Made by a program: the position numbers and the translations under genes. 44,130 nucleotides of DNA from Candidatus Nitrosopumilus sp. (GTDB taxonomy: Archaea > Thermoproteota > Nitrososphaeria > Nitrososphaerales > Nitrosopumilaceae). Location: positions 1 to 44,130 of the forward strand of contig NZ_JANQTA010000009.1 of assembly GCF_028278985.1 (NCBI RefSeq), in the 5' to 3' direction. The notes beneath the pieces were generated by a model. That model saw only the letters and a list, made by a program, of their open reading frames with translations. It had not been told where the DNA came from and ran no database searches. Shown in pieces: positions 16,529 to 28,035 of this stretch; within the stretch, counting starts at the first letter, position 1, and each line of letters starts with the position of its first letter.

Positions 16529-17060
16529 TCTTTACTTTGTTTCTTCAAATAAACACAAGTATCTAGAAGCAAAAACTATTCTTGATTCATTTGGAATTCG
16601 TTTGGGTTTTTTAAAATTAAGTTTAGAAGAAATTCAATCTGATTCGATCAAAATAATTGCAATTAAAAAAGCTAAAAATGCATTTTCAAAATGCAACAAA
16701 TCTCTAATAATTGAAGATGATGGATTATTCATAAATTCACTTGATGGTTTCCCAGGTCCATACTCATCTTTTGTTTTTCAAACAATAGGCAATAAAGGAA
16801 TTCTAAATTTACTTGATACAAAAAGAAATGCAAAATTTGTTTCTCTAATAACTTATTGTGACAAAAAAACCATTAAATCTTTTGAAGGAAAAATTGATGG
16901 AACCATTTCTAAAAAAATAAAAGGAAAAGGCTGGGGTTATGATCCAATCTTTGTTCCAAAAAATTCAACTAAAACATTTGCAGAAATTAAAAACAAAAAT
17001 GAATTATCTCATAGATACAAAGCTTTGAAAAAATTTGCTAGTTGGTATTTGCGTAAGTAG
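16512..17060 (+). CDS. rdgB: XTP/dITP pyrophosphatase (HAM1/RdgB family)
   Basis: The product is about 182 residues with the family motifs FVSSNKHKYLEA at the N-terminus, EDDGLFINSLDGFPGPYSS in the centre, GKGWGYDPIFVP and SHRYKALKKF. These enzymes hydrolyse ITP, dITP and XTP to monophosphates and keep deaminated purines out of nucleic acids. ATG 16512 is preferred over the upstream TTG 16494. It overlaps the end of bud32, and GTGGAAG may serve as the ribosome-binding site. Its 3' end overlaps the convergent Taw1 gene by 23 nt. Confidence 0.92.
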   Translation: MQQSFDLYFVSSNKHKYLEAKTILDSFGIRLGFLKLSLEEIQSDSIKIIAIKKAKNAFSKCNKSLIIEDDGLFINSLDGFPGPYSSFVFQTIGNKGILNLLDTKRNAKFVSLITYCDKKTIKSFEGKIDGTISKKIKGKGWGYDPIFVPKNSTKTFAEIKNKNELSHRYKALKKFASWYLRK

Positions 17061-18066
17061 GAATCCAACGATCAATAAATCGTTCATTATTTTGTAATAC
17101 TGAAATTCTTGAAACAAAACTTTCATCCATAACTGAAAACATTTTAGTTTGTTTTGCTATTTGATTACTAAATTCTTTAACTTCTTCCATTTCTAACATA
17201 TTTGAATGCTCTAGTCTGTTTGTTGAACGTCCAATATGCATGTATGATTTAATTTCAATAAAGTGTGGACTTGCTTTTCTAAACATTTCTGCAAATTCTG
17301 GAATCATTTCTTTTTTATCATTATAATTTCTAATCAAAGTTATTCGTAACACAGTTCTAGTATCTAATTTCTTTAGCATATCCAAAGTACGATTCCATCT
17401 TTCCCAAGAATCATCGTATTTTGGTTTGTTTATATTCAAAAATGATTCATAATCTGCTGCATTTGTTGACAAGTACAATTGAGTAGGTAATGCATTTTCA
17501 TCTTGTAATCTTTGAATCATATCTGGCTCTTGTCCGTTTGTTACAAGGAAAATTGATTTTGTAGATTCAAGTGAATTTAGATATTTGATGAGTTCTGGTA
17601 ATTTTGGATACATTGTTGGTTCTCCAGAAAGTGAAATTGCATAATGACTTGGCAATAATGATTCATCTAATCTTTGTTTATCATTTCTAGAGTCACCATA
17701 ATATCCATTGATCAATTTTTTTCTTTCAGCCATTAATTTTTCTAGAATTTCTTCTGGTTCTGCAACTTGTTCTGGTTTCATTTCTAATGAATCATAAAAT
17801 TCCATTGGTCTCCAACAATACACACATCTGTTTTCACAGTGCATTCCAGCTGGAGAAAATTCCATACATCGATGTGTTGAAATGCCATAAAACTTGTGTT
17901 TGTAACAACTCCCTTCGTGTTTGAAAGATTTTTTTGTCCAATGGCAAAGCTCAACTGTTGAATGATCTGCTACTCCATACTTGGCTTTTTTTAGTTGCTC
18001 AGAAATAGCAGGCTTGATCTGAATTAATTGATCGTCCTGTTCAACAACTTCTCCAGAACAACTCAT
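17038..18066 (-). CDS. taw1: 4-demethylwyosine synthase (radical SAM, Taw1/TYW1)
   Basis: The 342-residue radical SAM protein has the cluster motif CENRCVYC (C-x3-C-x2-C) followed by WRPMEF, and further N-terminal cysteines (CHWTKKS, CYKHKFYG) that could bind the second cluster. The stretch SLSGEPTMYPKLPEL is characteristic of the family. Taw1 condenses N1-methylguanosine-37 of tRNA-Phe with pyruvate to form the wyosine tricycle. The length matches archaeal homologues without the flavodoxin domain of eukaryotic TYW1. It is convergent with rdgB. Confidence 0.93.
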   Translation of the reverse strand: MSCSGEVVEQDDQLIQIKPAISEQLKKAKYGVADHSTVELCHWTKKSFKHEGSCYKHKFYGISTHRCMEFSPAGMHCENRCVYCWRPMEFYDSLEMKPEQVAEPEEILEKLMAERKKLINGYYGDSRNDKQRLDESLLPSHYAISLSGEPTMYPKLPELIKYLNSLESTKSIFLVTNGQEPDMIQRLQDENALPTQLYLSTNAADYESFLNINKPKYDDSWERWNRTLDMLKKLDTRTVLRITLIRNYNDKKEMIPEFAEMFRKASPHFIEIKSYMHIGRSTNRLEHSNMLEMEEVKEFSNQIAKQTKMFSVMDESFVSRISVLQNNERFIDRWIPTYANTN

Positions 18067-18170
18067 GAGTTGAAAACCTGTTTTCGTTTACTTAAATTGA
18101 TCGAGTTTTTTGTCTAACTTGGAAACTTTTCTCAAATCTATTGCGATTTTTAGTCGATTCTAGAGTGAGG

Positions 18171-18178
18171 TTTAATAA
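18171..18178 (+). promoter_or_regulatory. TATA box of the TSP3-repeat gene cluster
   Basis: TTTAATAA is centred 30 nt before the TTG start at 18205, in the 138-nt gap after the divergent Taw1 gene. It probably drives the first two, and perhaps all three, repeat genes. Confidence 0.55.
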
Positions 18179-18204: not shown

Positions 18205-20640
18205 TTGAAGAAAATACACGTTTTACCGTTCCTATTGTTGCTTGTAACTACTTTAACTAGTATGCCTTTTGCAACTGTCCATGCTGTTGATGACTTAGAT
18301 AATGACGGTGTTGATGATTCAATGGACGCATGTCCAAATCTTCAAGAAGACTATGAAGGAACAATCGATGGATGTCCCTCAAACTTTGTCCCATGGTATG
18401 ATGAGGACTATGACGGAATTGAAGATCATATTGATCAATGTCCTAGCTTAAGAGAAAATTACAATTTATTCCAAGATGAAGATGGATGTCCTGATACTTC
18501 ACCAGAAGGTGGTCCAGGTGGTTTACCTGATTCTGACGGTGATGGTTTTGTTGATACTGTTGACAATTGCCCAAACCAACCAGAAACTTTCAATGGAGTT
18601 TTAGATAGAGACGGTTGTCCTGATACATTTGGTTCTGGTGATAGAGACTTAGATGGAGTTCCAGATTATCTTGATCAATGTCCACTAAGTGCTGAAACTT
18701 ACAATAGATTCCAAGATGACGACGGTTGTCCTGATTCATTTAATGATTTACAATTTATTGATACTGACAATGATGGTATACAAGACAAAATTGATTTGTG
18801 TCCTACAGAACCTGAAGTGTTCAACGGTTATCTAGACACTGACGGTTGTCCAGACTCTGCACTTGACACTTCATTTGATGATGCAGATGGTGATGGAATT
18901 GCAGACCAGTTTGATATTTGTCCTAATGATCCTGAAACTTACAATCGTTTTGCAGATTATGACGGTTGTCCAGATTCAATTCCTTCATTTGCAGGTTCCC
19001 TTAATGATGCTGATGGTGATAGAATAATGGATGCAGATGATGCATGTCCACTAGAACCAGAAAGATACAATGGATTCCAAGATGACGACGGTTGTCCTGA
19101 CATTCCACCTTATTCTAGTGATAATGATTCTGATTTAGACGGAATTCCAAACAGTCTTGATCAATGTCCCGATGTAAAAGAAACTTACAATATGTTCCAA
19201 GATGACGACGGTTGTCCTGACTTTGTTGGAGATGATAGTGGAATTCCAGACTCTGATGGAGATGGAATAAATGATTATAATGATTTGTGTCCAAACCAAC
19301 CAGAAACTTTCAATGGTGTATTTGATAGAGATGGTTGTCCTGATGATAACAATAGAGGCGATAGAGACATGGATGGAATACCTGACAATTTAGATGCATG
19401 TCCAACTGCTAAAGAAACTTACAATGGCGTTAATGATTCTGATGGTTGTCCAGATGGTGTTGCTGGATTATCTGGATTAGACTTTGATGGTGACGGAATT
19501 TTTGATTTGAATGATAAATGTCCATTACAACCTGAAACAGTAAATGGCTATCTTGATCAAGATGGTTGTCCTGATTCAGCAGTTGTTGATTCTGATAATG
19601 ATGGAATTAGAGATTCATTAGATCAATGTCCATCCTCTCCTGAAACATGGAACAGATACATGGATCATGACGGTTGTCCTGACAATCCTTCTGAATCTGA
19701 TTCTGACTTTGATGGCATTTTAGATTCAGTTGATCAATGCCCACTTGATAGAGAGAGATACAATGGATTCCAAGATGAAGACGGTTGTCCAGATTATCCT
19801 GACTTTATTACTAATTTAGATTCTGACTTTGATGGAATAATTGATGAATTTGATCAATGTCCACTAGTTCCAGAAACTTACAACATGTTTGAAGACCTTG
19901 ACGGTTGTCCTGATACTGTTGGTGAAAACAAGGGAACTCCAGACTCTGATGGAGATGGAATTAATGATTACAGAGATCATTGTCCAAACCAACCAGAAAT
20001 CTATAACGGAATTCTAGACATGGATGGTTGTCCTGATGATTACATTTTAGGTCAAGATAGAGACATGGATGGAATTCCCGATGCTATTGATGCATGTCCA
20101 ACTGCAAAAGAAACTTACAATAAATTCCAAGATGACGACGGTTGTCCAGATGCTATCTTAGAATCAATGACTGTTGATTCTGATAATGATGGTATTTTGG
20201 ATGTCTATGATAACTGTCCTCTTGTTGCTGAAAACTATAATGGATTCCAAGATGACGACGGTTGTCCAGACTTAGATGACACAAGACCTGATTCTGATGG
20301 TGATGGCGTTCCAGATGTTATGGATATGTGTCCAGAACAAAGTGAAGTATGGAACAGATATGTTGACTATGACGGTTGTCCAGATGTATTACCAACTGGA
20401 AATGTTGTAATAGATTCTGATGGAGATGGAATTCGTGATGAAGTTGACTTATGTCCTGACTTGAAAGAATCTTGGAACAAATACAATGATCATGATGGCT
20501 GTCCTGATATTGCTCCAGAACAATCAAGATACAAACATGATGCTGACTTGGATGATATTATCAATGAACATGACATGTGTCCTCTAGAAGCAGAGGATTA
20601 TGACGGAGATAGAGATTCAGACGGATGTCCTGATAATTAG
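18205..20640 (+). CDS. Secreted thrombospondin type 3-like calcium-binding repeat protein, 20 repeats
   Basis: The 811-residue protein begins with a signal peptide (about 1-27, ending TVHA). The rest is 20 copies of a roughly 39-residue unit with the pattern DSDGDGIxDxxDxCPxxPETYN..QDxDGCPD. The DxDxDG loops are EF-hand-like/TSP3 calcium ligands, and each unit carries two Cys that could pair. Units recur in blocks of six: the CPNQPETFNG-type unit is the 3rd, 9th and 15th, spaced 240 and 231 residues. The protein is strongly acidic and has no C-terminal anchor. The start is TTG 18205, giving MKKIHVLPFLLLL. Function is unknown; surface or matrix calcium binding is an inference. Confidence 0.88.
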   Translation: MKKIHVLPFLLLLVTTLTSMPFATVHAVDDLDNDGVDDSMDACPNLQEDYEGTIDGCPSNFVPWYDEDYDGIEDHIDQCPSLRENYNLFQDEDGCPDTSPEGGPGGLPDSDGDGFVDTVDNCPNQPETFNGVLDRDGCPDTFGSGDRDLDGVPDYLDQCPLSAETYNRFQDDDGCPDSFNDLQFIDTDNDGIQDKIDLCPTEPEVFNGYLDTDGCPDSALDTSFDDADGDGIADQFDICPNDPETYNRFADYDGCPDSIPSFAGSLNDADGDRIMDADDACPLEPERYNGFQDDDGCPDIPPYSSDNDSDLDGIPNSLDQCPDVKETYNMFQDDDGCPDFVGDDSGIPDSDGDGINDYNDLCPNQPETFNGVFDRDGCPDDNNRGDRDMDGIPDNLDACPTAKETYNGVNDSDGCPDGVAGLSGLDFDGDGIFDLNDKCPLQPETVNGYLDQDGCPDSAVVDSDNDGIRDSLDQCPSSPETWNRYMDHDGCPDNPSESDSDFDGILDSVDQCPLDRERYNGFQDEDGCPDYPDFITNLDSDFDGIIDEFDQCPLVPETYNMFEDLDGCPDTVGENKGTPDSDGDGINDYRDHCPNQPEIYNGILDMDGCPDDYILGQDRDMDGIPDAIDACPTAKETYNKFQDDDGCPDAILESMTVDSDNDGILDVYDNCPLVAENYNGFQDDDGCPDLDDTRPDSDGDGVPDVMDMCPEQSEVWNRYVDYDGCPDVLPTGNVVIDSDGDGIRDEVDLCPDLKESWNKYNDHDGCPDIAPEQSRYKHDADLDDIINEHDMCPLEAEDYDGDRDSDGCPDN

Positions 20641-20654
20641 GAGTATATCTTAGA

Positions 20655-22829
20655 ATGAAAAAACAATTTCTTTTGGGATTTTTGCTTTTAGTTACAGTAT
20701 CAATTGGTATGATGCCAAATGGTGTTTATGCTGCTGGTGATGATATAGACAATGATGGAGACGGTGTTCCAAATGCTGTTGATCAATGTCCACATCTCTT
20801 AGAAGATTATGATCCACAGTATGGAAACAACATTGACGGTTGTCCAGCTGATTTTGTTCCCTGGTATGATGCAGATTATGATGGTGTAGAAGACCACATT
20901 GATGATTGTCCAACTGTAAAAGAAACCTACAATAGATACCAAGACACTGACGGTTGTCCCGATTTAGCTCCAGGTGATTCACAACCAATCTTTGATACTG
21001 ATGGTGATGGTTATCCTGATTACATGGATTTGTGTCCAAACCAACCTGAAACATTCAATGGTATTGATGACACTGACGGTTGTCCTGATGATGATTTAGA
21101 CTTACGTGACTCTGATCAAGATGGTATTTCAGATAGAAGAGATGCATGTCCATTAGAACCTGAAACATACAATAGATACCAAGACACTGACGGTTGTCCA
21201 GATTCAATTGAAGGAATTGATTCTCCATATGTCTTCCCAGATACTGATGGTGATGGAATTCCTGATAGATGGGATTCATGTATAGATGAAGCAGAGAACT
21301 TTAACAACTATCTTGACTTTGACGGTTGTCCTGATGTTCCAGGTGCTGAATCATTAGAAATTCTTGATGCAGATTATGATGGTATTCCAGATGATATGGA
21401 TCAATGTCCTTTAGATCGTGAAAATTATAATAAATTTGAAGATGGTGACGGTTGTCCAGATGTTTTACAACTCTTTACCACAGGTGATGCAGATGGTGAT
21501 ACAATAATGGATTTAGATGATGCATGTCCATTTAGTCCTGAAACATTTAACATGTTTGAAGATGAAGATGGCTGTCCAGATTTAGTTGCTGATAACAAAT
21601 CTACTGCAGATACTGACGGTGATGGATTTGCAGATGTATTTGATTTGTGTCCAACACAACCTGAAACATTCAATGGTTTACTTGATGAAGATGGTTGCCC
21701 TGATCAACATATGGCAAAACATGATTCTGATCAAGATGGTTTCCCTGATGTCTTAGATGCCTGTCCATTAGAAGCTGAAGTTTACAACAGATATCTTGAT
21801 TCTGACGGTTGTCCAGATTCAGTTCATGGAATTGATTCAATTTTCACTTTCCCAGATACTGACGGTGATGGAATTGAAGATAGATGGGATTCATGTATTG
21901 AAGAACCAGAGAACTTTAACAACTATCTTGACTTTGACGGTTGTCCTGATGTTCCAGGAACTACTGCTGGAGATATGATTGATTCTGATTATGATGGTCT
22001 TGCAGATCATCTAGATGAATGCCCAACTTTGGCTGAACGTTACAACAAATTCCAAGATGACGACGGTTGTCCTGACAGTATTGATTATATGACAATAGGT
22101 GATTCTGACGGAGATGGAATCTTTGATGATGTAGATATGTGTCCTGAAATTAAAGAAACCTATAACAAATTCCAAGATGAAGATGGGTGTCCTGACTTTA
22201 TTGCAGATAACAAATTGTTAGCAGATACTGACGGTGATGGATTTGCAGATGTATTTGATTTGTGTCCAACACAACCTGAAACATTCAATGGAGTCTTAGA
22301 CACTGACGGTTGTCCTGATGATCAATTATCAAAACTCGATTCTGATATGGATGGTATAATGGATGTAAATGATGCATGTCCACTAGAACCTGAAACTTAC
22401 AATAGATATCTTGATTCTGACGGTTGTCCTGATACAGTTGATGCAGTAGATGCTACATACTCCTTCCCAGATTCTGACGGTGATGGAATTCCTGATAGAT
22501 GGGATTCATGTATAGATGAAGCAGAGAACTTTAACAACTATCTTGACTTTGACGGTTGTCCTGATGTTCCAGGAGCTGAATCAACCACTCCAGTGTATGC
22601 AGATTCTGATGCTGATGGTTATCCAGACGCAATAGATTCATGTCCAACCAGTCCTGAAACCTGGAACAAATATCTAGATAAAGACGGTTGTCCTGATACT
22701 GCTCCAGAACAACAAAGATTTGTCCATGATGATGACCTTGATGACATCATCAATGACGAAGACTTGTGCCCATATGATCCAGAAGATTATGATGGTGACA
22801 ATGACCTAGACGGTTGTCCAGATCCATAA
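20655..22829 (+). CDS. Secreted TSP3-like calcium-binding repeat protein, 17 repeats (paralogue 2)
   Basis: The 724-residue paralogue has a signal peptide (about 1-26, MKKQFLLGFLLLVTVS...VYA) and 17 TSP3-like units. Units are arranged in blocks of five with an exact period of 205 residues (615 nt): the variant unit with DRWDSCI.E.ENFNNYLDF is the 5th, 10th and 15th. In that variant the CP of the first cysteine motif is changed to CI. A 95-nt stretch is identical between 21249-21343 and 22479-22573. It starts 14 nt after the first gene with GGAG before ATG, indicating co-transcription. The C-terminal unit ends PEDYDGDNDLDGCPDP without an anchor. Confidence 0.88.
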   Translation: MKKQFLLGFLLLVTVSIGMMPNGVYAAGDDIDNDGDGVPNAVDQCPHLLEDYDPQYGNNIDGCPADFVPWYDADYDGVEDHIDDCPTVKETYNRYQDTDGCPDLAPGDSQPIFDTDGDGYPDYMDLCPNQPETFNGIDDTDGCPDDDLDLRDSDQDGISDRRDACPLEPETYNRYQDTDGCPDSIEGIDSPYVFPDTDGDGIPDRWDSCIDEAENFNNYLDFDGCPDVPGAESLEILDADYDGIPDDMDQCPLDRENYNKFEDGDGCPDVLQLFTTGDADGDTIMDLDDACPFSPETFNMFEDEDGCPDLVADNKSTADTDGDGFADVFDLCPTQPETFNGLLDEDGCPDQHMAKHDSDQDGFPDVLDACPLEAEVYNRYLDSDGCPDSVHGIDSIFTFPDTDGDGIEDRWDSCIEEPENFNNYLDFDGCPDVPGTTAGDMIDSDYDGLADHLDECPTLAERYNKFQDDDGCPDSIDYMTIGDSDGDGIFDDVDMCPEIKETYNKFQDEDGCPDFIADNKLLADTDGDGFADVFDLCPTQPETFNGVLDTDGCPDDQLSKLDSDMDGIMDVNDACPLEPETYNRYLDSDGCPDTVDAVDATYSFPDSDGDGIPDRWDSCIDEAENFNNYLDFDGCPDVPGAESTTPVYADSDADGYPDAIDSCPTSPETWNKYLDKDGCPDTAPEQQRFVHDDDLDDIINDEDLCPYDPEDYDGDNDLDGCPDP
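21249..21343 (+). repeat. 95-nt exact direct repeat, copy 1
   Basis: Identical to 22479-22573, exactly 1230 nt (two 615-nt blocks) downstream in the same gene. It encodes the variant unit with DRWDSCIDEAENFNN. Identity at the nucleotide level points to recent duplication or gene conversion. Confidence 0.8.
22479..22573 (+). repeat. 95-nt exact direct repeat, copy 2
   Basis: Second copy of the 95-nt repeat at 21249-21343. The copy in the middle block (around 21864-21958) has several substitutions. Confidence 0.8.
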
Positions 22830-22902
22830 TCTATATCAAATTTTTGAGAATCTATTTAACGTGAGACTTAATAAATACTTGATAATAGCGGAGTCAGGGA
22901 TA

Positions 22903-25077
22903 ATGAAAAAACAGTTTCTTGTAGGATTTTTGCTTTTAGTTACAGTATCAATTGGTATGATGTCAAATGGTGTTTATGCTGCTAATGAAGAAATTGATAC
23001 TGACGGTGACGGTGTTCCAAATGCACTTGATTTTTGCCCTCATCTTTTAGAAGACTATGATCCAGAATATGGAAACAACATTGACGGTTGTCCCGCTGAT
23101 TTTGTTCCTTGGTATGATGCTGATTATGATGGAATTCAAGACCATATTGATCAATGTCCAACGGTAAAAGAAACCTACAATTTGATTGAAGATGAGGATG
23201 GTTGTCCTGATTTATCTGGAGATGCTGGTTCTGGAATAGCTGACAGTGATGGTGATGGTTATCCTGATTACATGGATTTGTGTCCAAACCAACCTGAAAC
23301 ATTCAATGGAATTGATGATAAAGACGGTTGTCCCGATGATGAATCAACTCTTAGAGATTCTGATCAAGATGGAATTTCTGATTCTACAGATGCTTGTCCA
23401 TTAGAATCTGAAACCTATAATTTCTATCAGGATTTAGACGGTTGTCCTGATTCTGTTGATGGAATTGATTCTTCTTACACATTCCCAGATACTGACGGTG
23501 ATGGAATTGATGATAGATGGGACCAATGTTTGAATGAACGAGAAAATTTCAATGACTATCTTGACTTTGACGGTTGTCCTGAAGCACCAGGAATTAATTC
23601 TCTTGGTCTAATTGATACAGATTATGATAGCATTCCTGATGATCTAGATGCTTGTCCAACAGAACGAGAAAATTTCAATAAATTCCAAGATGAAGACGGT
23701 TGTCCTGATAAAATTCAATTAACAAACACTGGTGATTTTGATTATGACGGAATCCCAGATGAATTTGATATGTGTCCTTACAATAAAGAAACTTACAATC
23801 TTTTCCAAGACACTGACGGTTGTCCTGATTTAGTTGCTGATAACAACTTTGCATTTGATACTGACGGTGATGGAATAATTGATAACTTAGATTTGTGTCC
23901 AAACCAACCAGAAACTTTCAACGGTTATGAGGATGCTGATGGTTGTCCAGACAGTTCTATTTCTGTTTTAGATTCTGATCAAGATGGTATTCCAAATACA
24001 ATTGATGCATGTCCATTTGAACCTGAAACATACAATCTCTTTAAGGACGGTGACGGTTGTCCTGACTCAACTGGTTCTGTAGTTTCATCTTACATTTTCC
24101 CAGATGCTGATGGAGATGGAATTGATGATAGATGGGATGCATGTGATGATGAACCTGAAAACTTTAATGATTATTTAGACACTGACGGCTGTCCAGATGT
24201 TCCTGGAATTTCAAAATCAGCATTACCTGATTCTGATTATGATGGAATCCCAGATGAGATTGATTCTTGTCCAACTATTGGCGAACGCTACAATGGATTC
24301 CAAGATGAAGATGGATGTCCTGACACAATAGCCTATGATTCATTTGGTGATGCTGACTTTGATGGTGTCACTGATGATGTAGATCAATGTCCAACTGCTA
24401 GAGAAACTTACAATAGATTCCAAGATAGTGATGGCTGTCCTGATTTAATTGCTGATAACAAACTTGCAGCAGACACTGATGGTGATGGAATTGGTGATCA
24501 TATTGACTTGTGTCCCGGACAACCAGAAACATACAATGGAATTGATGACGCCGATGGCTGCCCAGATAGTTTTTCATTTACAACTGATTCTGATCAAGAT
24601 GGAATCGTAGATATTTCAGATGCATGTCCATTTGAACCTGAAACCTATAATTTCTATCAGGATCATGATGGTTGTCCTGATACTTTAGGCTCTGTACTTC
24701 CATCTTATACATTCCCAGACACTGACGGTGATGGAATTGAGGATAGAAGAGATGCTTGTATTGATGAACAAGAAAATTTCAATGGTTATCTTGATTGGGA
24801 TGGTTGCCCAGATGTTCTAGCTGCAGAATCAACTGAACCAACACGATATGACTCTGATGGTGATGGTTATTATGATGGAATTGATTCTTGTCCAACCAGT
24901 CCTGAAACCTGGAACAAATACAATGACCATGACGGTTGTCCTGATACTGCTCCTGAACAACAAAGATTTGTCCATGATGATGACCTAGATGACATCATTA
25001 ACGATGAAGATTTGTGCCCATATGATCCAGAAGATTATGATGGCGATAATGACCATGACGGTTGTCCAGATCCATAA
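22903..25077 (+). CDS. Secreted TSP3-like calcium-binding repeat protein, 17 repeats (paralogue 3)
   Basis: From ATG 22903 this protein is 724 residues, exactly the length of its neighbour, with a nearly identical signal peptide and 17 units in the same five-unit blocks (615-nt period, seen at 23512, 24127 and 24742). The GTG at 22861 would add 14 residues before the signal peptide and is unlikely. GCGGAG lies upstream of ATG 22903. The equal length and shared ends indicate a tandem gene duplication. The internal sequences have diverged, e.g. unit 10 reads DACDDEPENFN. The function is presumably the same, outside the cell, with calcium. Confidence 0.88.
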   Translation: MKKQFLVGFLLLVTVSIGMMSNGVYAANEEIDTDGDGVPNALDFCPHLLEDYDPEYGNNIDGCPADFVPWYDADYDGIQDHIDQCPTVKETYNLIEDEDGCPDLSGDAGSGIADSDGDGYPDYMDLCPNQPETFNGIDDKDGCPDDESTLRDSDQDGISDSTDACPLESETYNFYQDLDGCPDSVDGIDSSYTFPDTDGDGIDDRWDQCLNERENFNDYLDFDGCPEAPGINSLGLIDTDYDSIPDDLDACPTERENFNKFQDEDGCPDKIQLTNTGDFDYDGIPDEFDMCPYNKETYNLFQDTDGCPDLVADNNFAFDTDGDGIIDNLDLCPNQPETFNGYEDADGCPDSSISVLDSDQDGIPNTIDACPFEPETYNLFKDGDGCPDSTGSVVSSYIFPDADGDGIDDRWDACDDEPENFNDYLDTDGCPDVPGISKSALPDSDYDGIPDEIDSCPTIGERYNGFQDEDGCPDTIAYDSFGDADFDGVTDDVDQCPTARETYNRFQDSDGCPDLIADNKLAADTDGDGIGDHIDLCPGQPETYNGIDDADGCPDSFSFTTDSDQDGIVDISDACPFEPETYNFYQDHDGCPDTLGSVLPSYTFPDTDGDGIEDRRDACIDEQENFNGYLDWDGCPDVLAAESTEPTRYDSDGDGYYDGIDSCPTSPETWNKYNDHDGCPDTAPEQQRFVHDDDLDDIINDEDLCPYDPEDYDGDNDHDGCPDP

Positions 25078-25126: not shown

Positions 25127-26095
25127 ATGCTTCCAAAATTTTCTAGTAAGGCATTTTTGGCTCCAATGGCTGGAGTTAGTGATCCAGCATTACGATTACA
25201 ATGCAAAAAGATGGGAGCTGGATTAGTTGTTACAGAATTTACTAGTATCCATAGTATCATTGCAAAAGAACAACAACTCAAAGAGAATATGAAAACCATT
25301 CAAGAATTCATTGAATATTCTGAAGAAGAGCGACCATTATCTGTTCAACTATTTGGATCTGACCTTGTTGCATTAGAAAAAGCAGCAAAAATTGTAGAAC
25401 CTTATTTTGATATTATTGATTATAACATGGGATGTCCTGCACCTCATATTACTCAACAGATGGCTGGTGGTGCACTACTTCAAGAAGTAAATCTTACGCA
25501 ACAAATTTTCAGTACTCTTGTAAATGCTGTCAAAAAGCCTGTTACACTAAAAATTCGTTCAGGAGTTACAAGTGCAAGTAAATTCTTGTTCAGAGATATT
25601 GCAGAAGTTGCAGAAGATGAAGGAATTCAAATGATTACTTTTCATCCAAGGACTGTCAGTCAAGGATATTCTGGAAATGCAGATTGGAATTTGATAAAAG
25701 AACTAAAGGAAATCTCAAATCTACCGATTGTAGGAAATGGTGATGTGACCACTCCTGAAGAAGCAAAAACTATGCTAGATGAAACTGGTTGTGATTATGT
25801 TATGATAGGCCGTGGTGTAATGGGCAATCCCTTCTTGTTTGAGCAAATCAATGATTATCTAAAGACCAACTCATATCATGAATATTCATTCAAAGATAGA
25901 TTAGATTCATTTTTTGAATATCTTCATTTGACATCAAAATACAATATCAAATTTGCAAACATCAAGGGTCAAGCAATGAGATTTACCAAAGGAATGAGAG
26001 GAGGTTCTAGTCTTCGTGCAAAAATTACTTTTTCAAAGAATTTGTCTGAACTTGAACAAATTATGAAAGATGGCTATGCTTTATCAAATGCATAA
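25127..26095 (+). CDS. dus: tRNA-dihydrouridine synthase
   Basis: The 322-residue FMN-dependent TIM-barrel protein starts with FLAPMAGVSDPALR, the FMN/phosphate-binding Dus signature. YNMGCPAPHI carries the catalytic Cys, followed by PVTLKIRSG, HPRTVSQGYSG, VGNGDV and the glycine-rich VMIGRGVMGNPFLF. Dus enzymes reduce uridines in the tRNA D loop with NADPH. The length matches the family, including the C-terminal helical domain. The gene has its own promoter, and no partner gene is obvious. Confidence 0.94.
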   Translation: MLPKFSSKAFLAPMAGVSDPALRLQCKKMGAGLVVTEFTSIHSIIAKEQQLKENMKTIQEFIEYSEEERPLSVQLFGSDLVALEKAAKIVEPYFDIIDYNMGCPAPHITQQMAGGALLQEVNLTQQIFSTLVNAVKKPVTLKIRSGVTSASKFLFRDIAEVAEDEGIQMITFHPRTVSQGYSGNADWNLIKELKEISNLPIVGNGDVTTPEEAKTMLDETGCDYVMIGRGVMGNPFLFEQINDYLKTNSYHEYSFKDRLDSFFEYLHLTSKYNIKFANIKGQAMRFTKGMRGGSSLRAKITFSKNLSELEQIMKDGYALSNA

Positions 26096-27330: not shown

Positions 27331-28035
27331 ATGGAAGAATCCTTACATGATGACGTAAAGGCTCTTTTAGACAAAGATTTTGGAGATGATAGAATTCTCA
27401 AGCAAATCCTCAGAGCATGTGAAAATGATGAGGTAATTAGTAACTTTGAAAGAAATTATGTTAAAAAACTAGCAGAAAAACATCTTGGCAGAAAACCACC
27501 TGTTGAACCTAATGAAATTCCACCAAAAGAAGAAAAACCAGTTCCAGATGTTGTGATTCCTGAACCTTCAACTGTTCAACAAACACAAACATTCCAAACT
27601 CCTCCACCTAAAATTACATCTGAAAACAAAAAAAATTCTAAAATTATGATGGGCATTGGTGGTATTGCACTTGTAATCATTATTGCAATTGCTGCAACAT
27701 ATGGTGGAATGTCTACTGATTCTCCTGGAGTAGTTGATGATCCTATTACTCCAGTTGATGCTTCATTATCAATAAAATCAGATTTGAATTCATATGATGC
27801 AAAAGATCTTATCTCTATTAGTGGAAATTCTGAAACTTCAGGAACTGCAAATCTCTCAATAGAAAATCAAGATGGAGAATTAGTTTGGGCAGAACAAGTT
27901 TCTATCAATAGTAATGGTAAATATTCAACACTTGCAATTGCAGGAGGCCCTGGTTGGGAGAAATCTGGAACTTATTCATTAATTGTAGATAATGGAAAAG
28001 AAACCAAAACAACTACTTTTACATTTACATCTTAA
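27331..28035 (+). CDS. Single-pass membrane protein with cytosolic N-domain and extracellular beta domain
   Basis: The 234-residue protein has an acidic helical N-terminal domain (1-55). A Pro-rich linker follows (about 55-100, EIPPKEEKPVPDVVIPEP), then one transmembrane helix (about 107-125, IGGIALVIIIAIAATYGG), and a C-terminal Ig-like domain with NSYDAKDLISISGNSE and KSGTYSLIVDNG. That last domain is similar in style to the extracellular domains of the protein at 192-1178. There is no N-terminal signal peptide, so the N-domain should be cytosolic. A sensor or anchor role is possible. It ends tail-to-tail with the next gene, with a 4-nt overlap. Confidence 0.75.
   Translation: MEESLHDDVKALLDKDFGDDRILKQILRACENDEVISNFERNYVKKLAEKHLGRKPPVEPNEIPPKEEKPVPDVVIPEPSTVQQTQTFQTPPPKITSENKKNSKIMMGIGGIALVIIIAIAATYGGMSTDSPGVVDDPITPVDASLSIKSDLNSYDAKDLISISGNSETSGTANLSIENQDGELVWAEQVSINSNGKYSTLAIAGGPGWEKSGTYSLIVDNGKETKTTTFTFTS

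Follow-up and report, generated by a model that had tools for sequence, protein, structure and literature searches.

Why three adjacent genes of an ammonia-oxidizing archaeon should encode secreted proteins made almost purely of TSP3-like repeats is the question raised by the locus at positions 18205 to 25077 of the window, the 44,130-nucleotide stretch of Candidatus Nitrosopumilus sp. DNA analyzed here (NZ_JANQTA010000009.1). Some of the most abundant microbes of the sea belong to the Nitrosopumilaceae, whose envelope is the site of ammonium gathering. The dependence of this envelope on Ca2+ is known; to our knowledge, little is known of its parts beyond the S-layer protein.

Gene 1 (18205..20640, forward strand) was found by open reading frame, HMM unit count and Pfam to encode a secreted all-TSP3 protein of 811 amino acids, with 20 units in blocks of six, termed A type. 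Gene 2 (20655..22829) and gene 3 (22903..25077), both on the forward strand, encode B-type proteins of the same kind with 17 units each in blocks of five. The reading frame of gene 3 ends at 25077 and has two possible starts, GTG 22861 and ATG 22903; the ATG is most likely the true start because the GTG falls within a conserved promoter. Counted from it, the gene 3 product has 724 amino acids, the same as that of gene 2, as a previous reading of the letters alone (the sequence-only reading) had proposed. Its count of 54 units in three consecutive genes was reproduced by an HMM built from the window (20 + 17 + 17). Gene 1 starts with a TTG codon, which is shared by nearly all aligned orthologues; this genus-wide TTG at position 18205 may tune translation.

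All three proteins passed the curated cut-off of 25 bits for Pfam TSP_3 (PF02412), with 133.5, 93.3 and 101.1 bits (E = 2e-39, 7e-27 and 2e-29) for genes 1, 2 and 3, respectively, and the Pfam scan gave no other credible domain in them. A match of gene 2 to the phage family BR0599 (Pfam, 26.7 bits) covered 18 residues of one repeat unit; the BR0599 and TIGR02218 phage matches, 18-24 residues inside a repeat unit, were rejected as chance similarity. All 21 Pfam TSP_3 matches of the genome from which the window comes fall inside the cluster, and none was found elsewhere in that genome.

The units share a 32-residue core with the consensus D-x-D-x-D-G-x-x-D-x-x-D-x-C-P-x-x-x-E-x-Y-N-x-Y-x-D-x-D-G-C-P-D, which was free of any insertion or deletion in 51 of the 54 units. 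Eleven positions of the core are invariant (D1, D3, D5, D12, C14, E19, D26, D28, G29, C30 and P31), among them both cysteines and the main putative Ca2+-ligand aspartates. Variation is confined to the linkers of 4-12 residues that separate the cores, and unit 1 of each protein is spaced differently.

Above the unit lies a second period. In genes 2 and 3, the identity between units at lag 5 was 0.76 and 0.72, respectively, and 0.70-0.78 over lags 5 and 10, compared to 0.56-0.60 at lags not divisible by five; the top DNA self-shift was exactly 615 nt, or 205 residues. In gene 2, the five-unit blocks of 205 residues lie at 20994..21608 (core starts 114 and 319) and 21609..22223 (core starts 319 and 524). 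In gene 1, unit identity reached 0.69 at lag 6 compared to 0.57-0.63 at other lags, and DNA shifts of 720 nt and 693 nt were both among the top ones. They correspond to six-unit blocks of 240 residues (18529..19248, core starts 109 and 349) and 231 residues (19249..19941, core starts 349 and 580). The block sizes of gene 1 and the exact 205-residue period of genes 2 and 3 had both been read correctly from the letters alone. Each protein ends in a cap unit, APEQSRYKHDADLDDIIN..GCPD in gene 1 (20509..20634), and the cap units of gene 2 (22698..22823) and gene 3 (24946..25071) are conserved in alignment. The cap motif PEQ.R..HD.DL is kept in A and B types alike.

The proteins are predicted to be secreted. 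The signal peptide of gene 1 (18205..18285) has a predicted cut after AHA at residue 27, with a hydropathy maximum of 1.78 over residues 4-22 and the first cysteine at residue 43. Each protein has one N-terminal hydrophobic segment and a first cysteine at residue 43-45. By hydropathy and sequence, no lipobox, second hydrophobic stretch or C-terminal anchor was found in any of the three, which agrees with the earlier proposal of a signal peptide without an anchor. The proteins are strongly acidic (Asp plus Glu 28-29%, pI 4.05), and there are 0-2 glycosylation sequons per protein.

A profile of gene 1 orthologues matched solved structures of COMP (3fby, 1e-9), thrombospondin-2 (1yo8, 9e-7) and an OmpA protein (5wtl, 3e-7), in alignments of 100-260 residues within the TSP3 regions. 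AlphaFold models of genes 1 and 2 (27 and 30 rows) were uninterpretable, with a mean pLDDT of 54 and a pTM of 0.17-0.18, and the predicted shape is therefore taken from homology only. From the invariant ligands, the cysteine pairs and the matches to TSP3 structures, we infer extracellular rods filled with Ca2+ and braced by disulfides.

TSP_3 matches were present in 78 of the 95 genomes of the genus. The usual left neighbor of the cluster is a gene for a TYW1-like radical-SAM wyosine enzyme (17038..18066, reverse strand; Pfam Wyosine_form and Radical_SAM), and the usual right neighbor is dus, for a tRNA dihydrouridine synthase (25127..26095, forward strand; Pfam Dus). At 20 loci, the cluster was flanked by both, or the contig included the left flank. 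A gene 1 match was found in 12 of the 20 Nitrosopumilaceae genera sampled. In a class-wide survey of 296 genomes, 12 of 67 genera were positive, and among the matches listed all were within the family (E <= 1e-20). Named records with matches include Nitrosopumilus, Nitrosarchaeum and Nitrosomaritimum, and some titles mention groundwater or Lake Hoare. The synteny across the genus and the presence in 12 family genera rule out a strain-specific oddity, one of the outcomes on which the sequence-only reading had staked its proposal, and a repeat-collapse artefact is ruled out by the identical trio in many single-contig genomes. A search of IMG/VR for a phage origin with six peptide patterns, which are sensitive to close relatives only, gave no match.

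The cluster is not essential, since some complete family genomes do not have it (for example, G127 and G135); in G127, an empty site of approximately 90 nt separates TYW1 from dus. Fragmented assemblies often break at the cluster site (for example, L194), and its absence in MAGs is weak evidence because contigs often end there. Several deviating loci were also observed. A single divergent gene of 714 amino acids and 17 units, with other spacing and missing the standard caps, occupies the cluster site in G003 and G014 (L030:8557-10701, L046:7594-9738). In G047 (L172:2293-9987), the B-type genes are split into several overlapping frames, as a decaying locus or frameshifts in the assembly would produce. 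A separate protein of approximately 490 amino acids, with a few TSP3 repeats of the classical kind and a large His/Cys-containing domain to which no family is assigned, is present in some relatives (L018:1393-2871; also G006:C1:1216586-1216735). Within the window, positions 27331-28035, near a GlnK-like gene, encode a protein of 234 amino acids that matches no Pfam family and seems to have one membrane segment.

Across relatives, the protein lengths were strikingly constant, at approximately 811, 723 and 723 amino acids. For gene 1, the succession of unit lengths (38, 43, 37, 40, 40, 42, 40, 41, 37, 40, 36, 37, 40, 41, 38, 40, 38, 41, 42) was nearly always identical throughout the genus despite a protein identity of approximately 77-83%, and the series of genes 2 and 3 (38, 42, 38, 44, 42, 40, 41, etc.) was likewise retained. 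Gene 1 is under purifying selection; comparison with two orthologues gave dN of 0.12-0.13 and dS of 0.82-1.47 (dN/dS approximately 0.09-0.15).

Where the size did change, it changed by whole blocks. Sizes were counted in 61 genomes for closed reading frames with both end caps, recognized by simple motifs, so that broken, divergent and contig-edge proteins without both caps stand outside this count. The capped proteins had 8 (3 proteins), 12 (1), 14 (2), 17 (64), 19 (2), 20 (45), 22 (6), 26 (2) or 27 (1) units, and in 124 of the 126 the number of units was 2 mod 5 or 2 mod 6. The spacing pattern assigns 8, 14, 20 or 26 units to the A type and 12, 17, 22 or 27 to the B type, in both types a multiple of the block plus two. 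The two exceptions, of 19 units, belong to one genus (G113 and G120) and show a partial, in-frame loss of a single unit. Gain or loss of single units as the main mode of change was rejected, as none was seen among the capped proteins. The largest protein found, a B-like one of 1332 amino acids in G079 (L174:3504-7502), has 32 units and is also 2 mod 5.

In two proteins, of 26 units (L093) and 22 units (G118), segments one block apart were 99-100% identical in DNA, and by this measure their extra blocks appear as recent whole-block duplications; the other extra blocks are old and diverged. DNA identity was approximately 70-79% between blocks and 63-65% between neighboring units. Size change runs by recombination between blocks, and the whole-block steps could come from recombination among the sole long DNA repeats, with no structural reason. 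Between species, the best match of a unit was at the same unit position in 88% of cases for gene 1 and 70% for genes 2 and 3, where mismatches in position were mostly multiples of five. The lower share of positional matches and this pattern of confusions indicate sequence exchange between B blocks as well. From the size rule (2 mod 5, 2 mod 6) follows a direct structural prediction, and the rule could tell whether lengths in repeat proteins are selected or are a default outcome of recombination.

Genus alignment and pattern search revealed a promoter motif upstream of gene 1, GTGAGGTTTAATAA (18165..18178, forward strand), which ends 26 nt before the TTG, and one upstream of gene 3, GTGAGACTTAATAA (22861..22874, forward strand). 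The motif GTGAGRYTTAATAA is kept 5' of genes 1 and 3 in most of the genus. In 10 genomes, the pattern GTGAGRYTTAATWA had 17 occurrences, all of them at the cluster, compared to two of its reversed control. When one mismatch was allowed, the genome of the window contained a single extra site, approximately 200 nt from the next reading frame on that strand; this site is probably due to chance, and a wider regulon was rejected. No conserved promoter was found upstream of gene 2 in the genus alignment. The gap between genes 1 and 2 is 14 nt, with a ribosome-binding-like GGAG at the gene 1 stop. The motif before genes 1 and 3 and its absence before gene 2 therefore suggest that there are probably two transcription units, gene 1-gene 2 and gene 3, with one shared promoter type. 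A few genomes have just one of the two motif sites, and in some the preceding gene abuts gene 3 and the promoter is missing. The shared type may point to a regulator specific to the cluster, or one promoter may have been copied and inherited.

We consider it rather probable that the proteins of the trio are secreted Ca2+-loaded rods, each with a set length, and that they are part of the outer envelope or the extracellular matrix. Each unit of approximately 40 residues has the sequence of one complete Ca2+ loop of the thrombospondin type (DxDxDGxxDxxD) and of half a loop (DxDGCPD), linked by the cysteine pair 16 residues apart, probably as an intra-unit disulfide. In the millimolar Ca2+ of seawater, the chain of units would fold into a stiff rod whose length would be set by the number of units, 20, 17 and 17 in the standard trio, with constant caps at both ends and an interior that gains or loses almost only whole blocks. 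The near-constant length between species is what a spacer or scaffold would show if it had to bridge a gap of fixed width, such as one beneath or above the Ca2+-dependent S-layer. A more specific version takes the rod as a ruler, with a superhelical turn of five units in one class and six in the other and only whole turns allowed between fixed caps; Ca2+ would then allow the trio, expressed from its own promoter type, to fix how far the S-layer stands from the membrane or to assemble into a regular outer lattice. To this version we give little credence.

The matrix, adhesive or S-layer function first proposed for the trio is a putative one. The rods might instead reach outward and hold cells to cells or to particles via Ca2+, as in Myxococcus. 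Among NCBIfam families, the closest was MtsC (E = 1e-51), a protein of cell-cell cohesion, and passages of PMC6593220 draw the same Myxococcus comparison. However, the score of 176 bits is under the cut-off of 350 and reflects largely generic TSP3 similarity; adhesion or binding domains and an anchor are absent, and side-chain diversity is low, which leaves a role in adhesion doubtful. A polyanionic gel, in which a net charge of approximately -180 per protein would serve as a cation reservoir or exchanger and add to the ammonium enrichment by the S-layer, is distinctly unlikely. The composition would suit it (approximately 22-23% Asp, few Lys/Arg), as it exceeds that of the S-layer protein (10.9% Asp, PMC11153153), whose acidic pores have been proposed as ammonium channels (PMC11153153). 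Yet the acidic residues stand in exact Ca2+-loop geometry, with invariant cysteines and near-constant unit lengths; Ca2+-filled loops would shed much of the charge, and a gel could do without a fixed length or a period.

According to passages of PMC6593220, H2O2 exposure of three Nitrosopumilus strains raised the abundance of two TSP3-repeat proteins to 15-40 times the level reached when catalase or a helper bacterium was present. Together with the 34-40 cysteines per protein, this rise would suit a stress-induced shield, or a sacrificial target, that protects against H2O2 or damage to the surface through abundance and many cysteines rather than as a defined rod. The cysteines sit in invariant, probably disulfide-bonded pairs, and the same passages describe S-layer proteins as likewise increased without catalase, so that the rise coincides with a general renewal of surface proteins. 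Such a shield also leaves the fixed length unexplained, and we regard it as highly improbable. A conserved set of Ca2+ rods of fixed length with a cluster-specific promoter would be a concrete candidate part of the envelope.

Secreted TSP3 proteins in ammonia-oxidizing archaea are not new, given the passages of PMC6593220 and a report, cited in PMC7265257, on deep-sea members with an extracellular structure that resembles thrombospondin and has five Ca2+-binding domains. The proposal that the system was undescribed did not stand, while its other part, proteins almost purely of TSP3 and similar to Ca2+-bound thrombospondin/COMP structures, did. The TSP3 proteins of PMC6593220, termed TT3R, come from the same genus as the trio, consist likewise of TSP3-repeat proteins and respond to stress, and are probably orthologues of this cluster, although two relatives have a different, additional TSP3 protein; the main text of that paper prints none of the locus-tag prefixes searched for. 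In contrast to the present analysis, its TT3R passages do not deal with the locus, the order of the genes, their period or length, or the promoters. Within the open-access literature, the pattern of conservation at the locus, the quantized size rule and the cluster-specific promoter seem to be new. In N. maritimus, EGTA strips the S-layer and ammonium binding is lost (PMC11153153), and such effects of EGTA on cells could act on the TSP3 trio too. The S-layer protein NmSLP itself consists of tandem Ig-like domains, whereas no Ig family was found by Pfam in the trio.

The authors of PMC6593220 likened the TT3R proteins, in the passages concerned, to the Myxococcus thrombospondin-like cluster of surface-matrix proteins. 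In that system, MtsC (NF047638) likewise belongs to clustered, secreted, TSP3-rich proteins, with a role in the surface matrix or cohesion proposed in Myxococcus; in contrast, the trio does not carry the MYXO-CTERM tail, and genes 1, 2 and 3 missed the NCBIfam equivalog cut-off of 350, with 175.9, 119.2 and 111.2 bits, respectively. Bacterial OmpA-family proteins (5wtl) have the same intra-unit cysteine pair (CP...GCPD) between Ca2+ loops, and a study cited in passages of PMC6593220 found that Ca2+ binding by OmpA-type repeats depends on the intra-repeat disulfide. Their repeat region is short and joined to an OmpA domain, whereas the trio consists of repeats throughout, with no OmpA match in Pfam. 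Thrombospondin and COMP (PF02412; 3fby, 1yo8, 1ux6) share with the trio the tandem DxDxDGxxDxxD Ca2+ motifs with cysteines, but their EGF, coiled-coil and lectin-like C-terminal domains had no Pfam counterpart in it. Compared to them, the units of the trio are longer and strictly periodic, and its 17-20 units exceed the number in animal TSP3 proteins.
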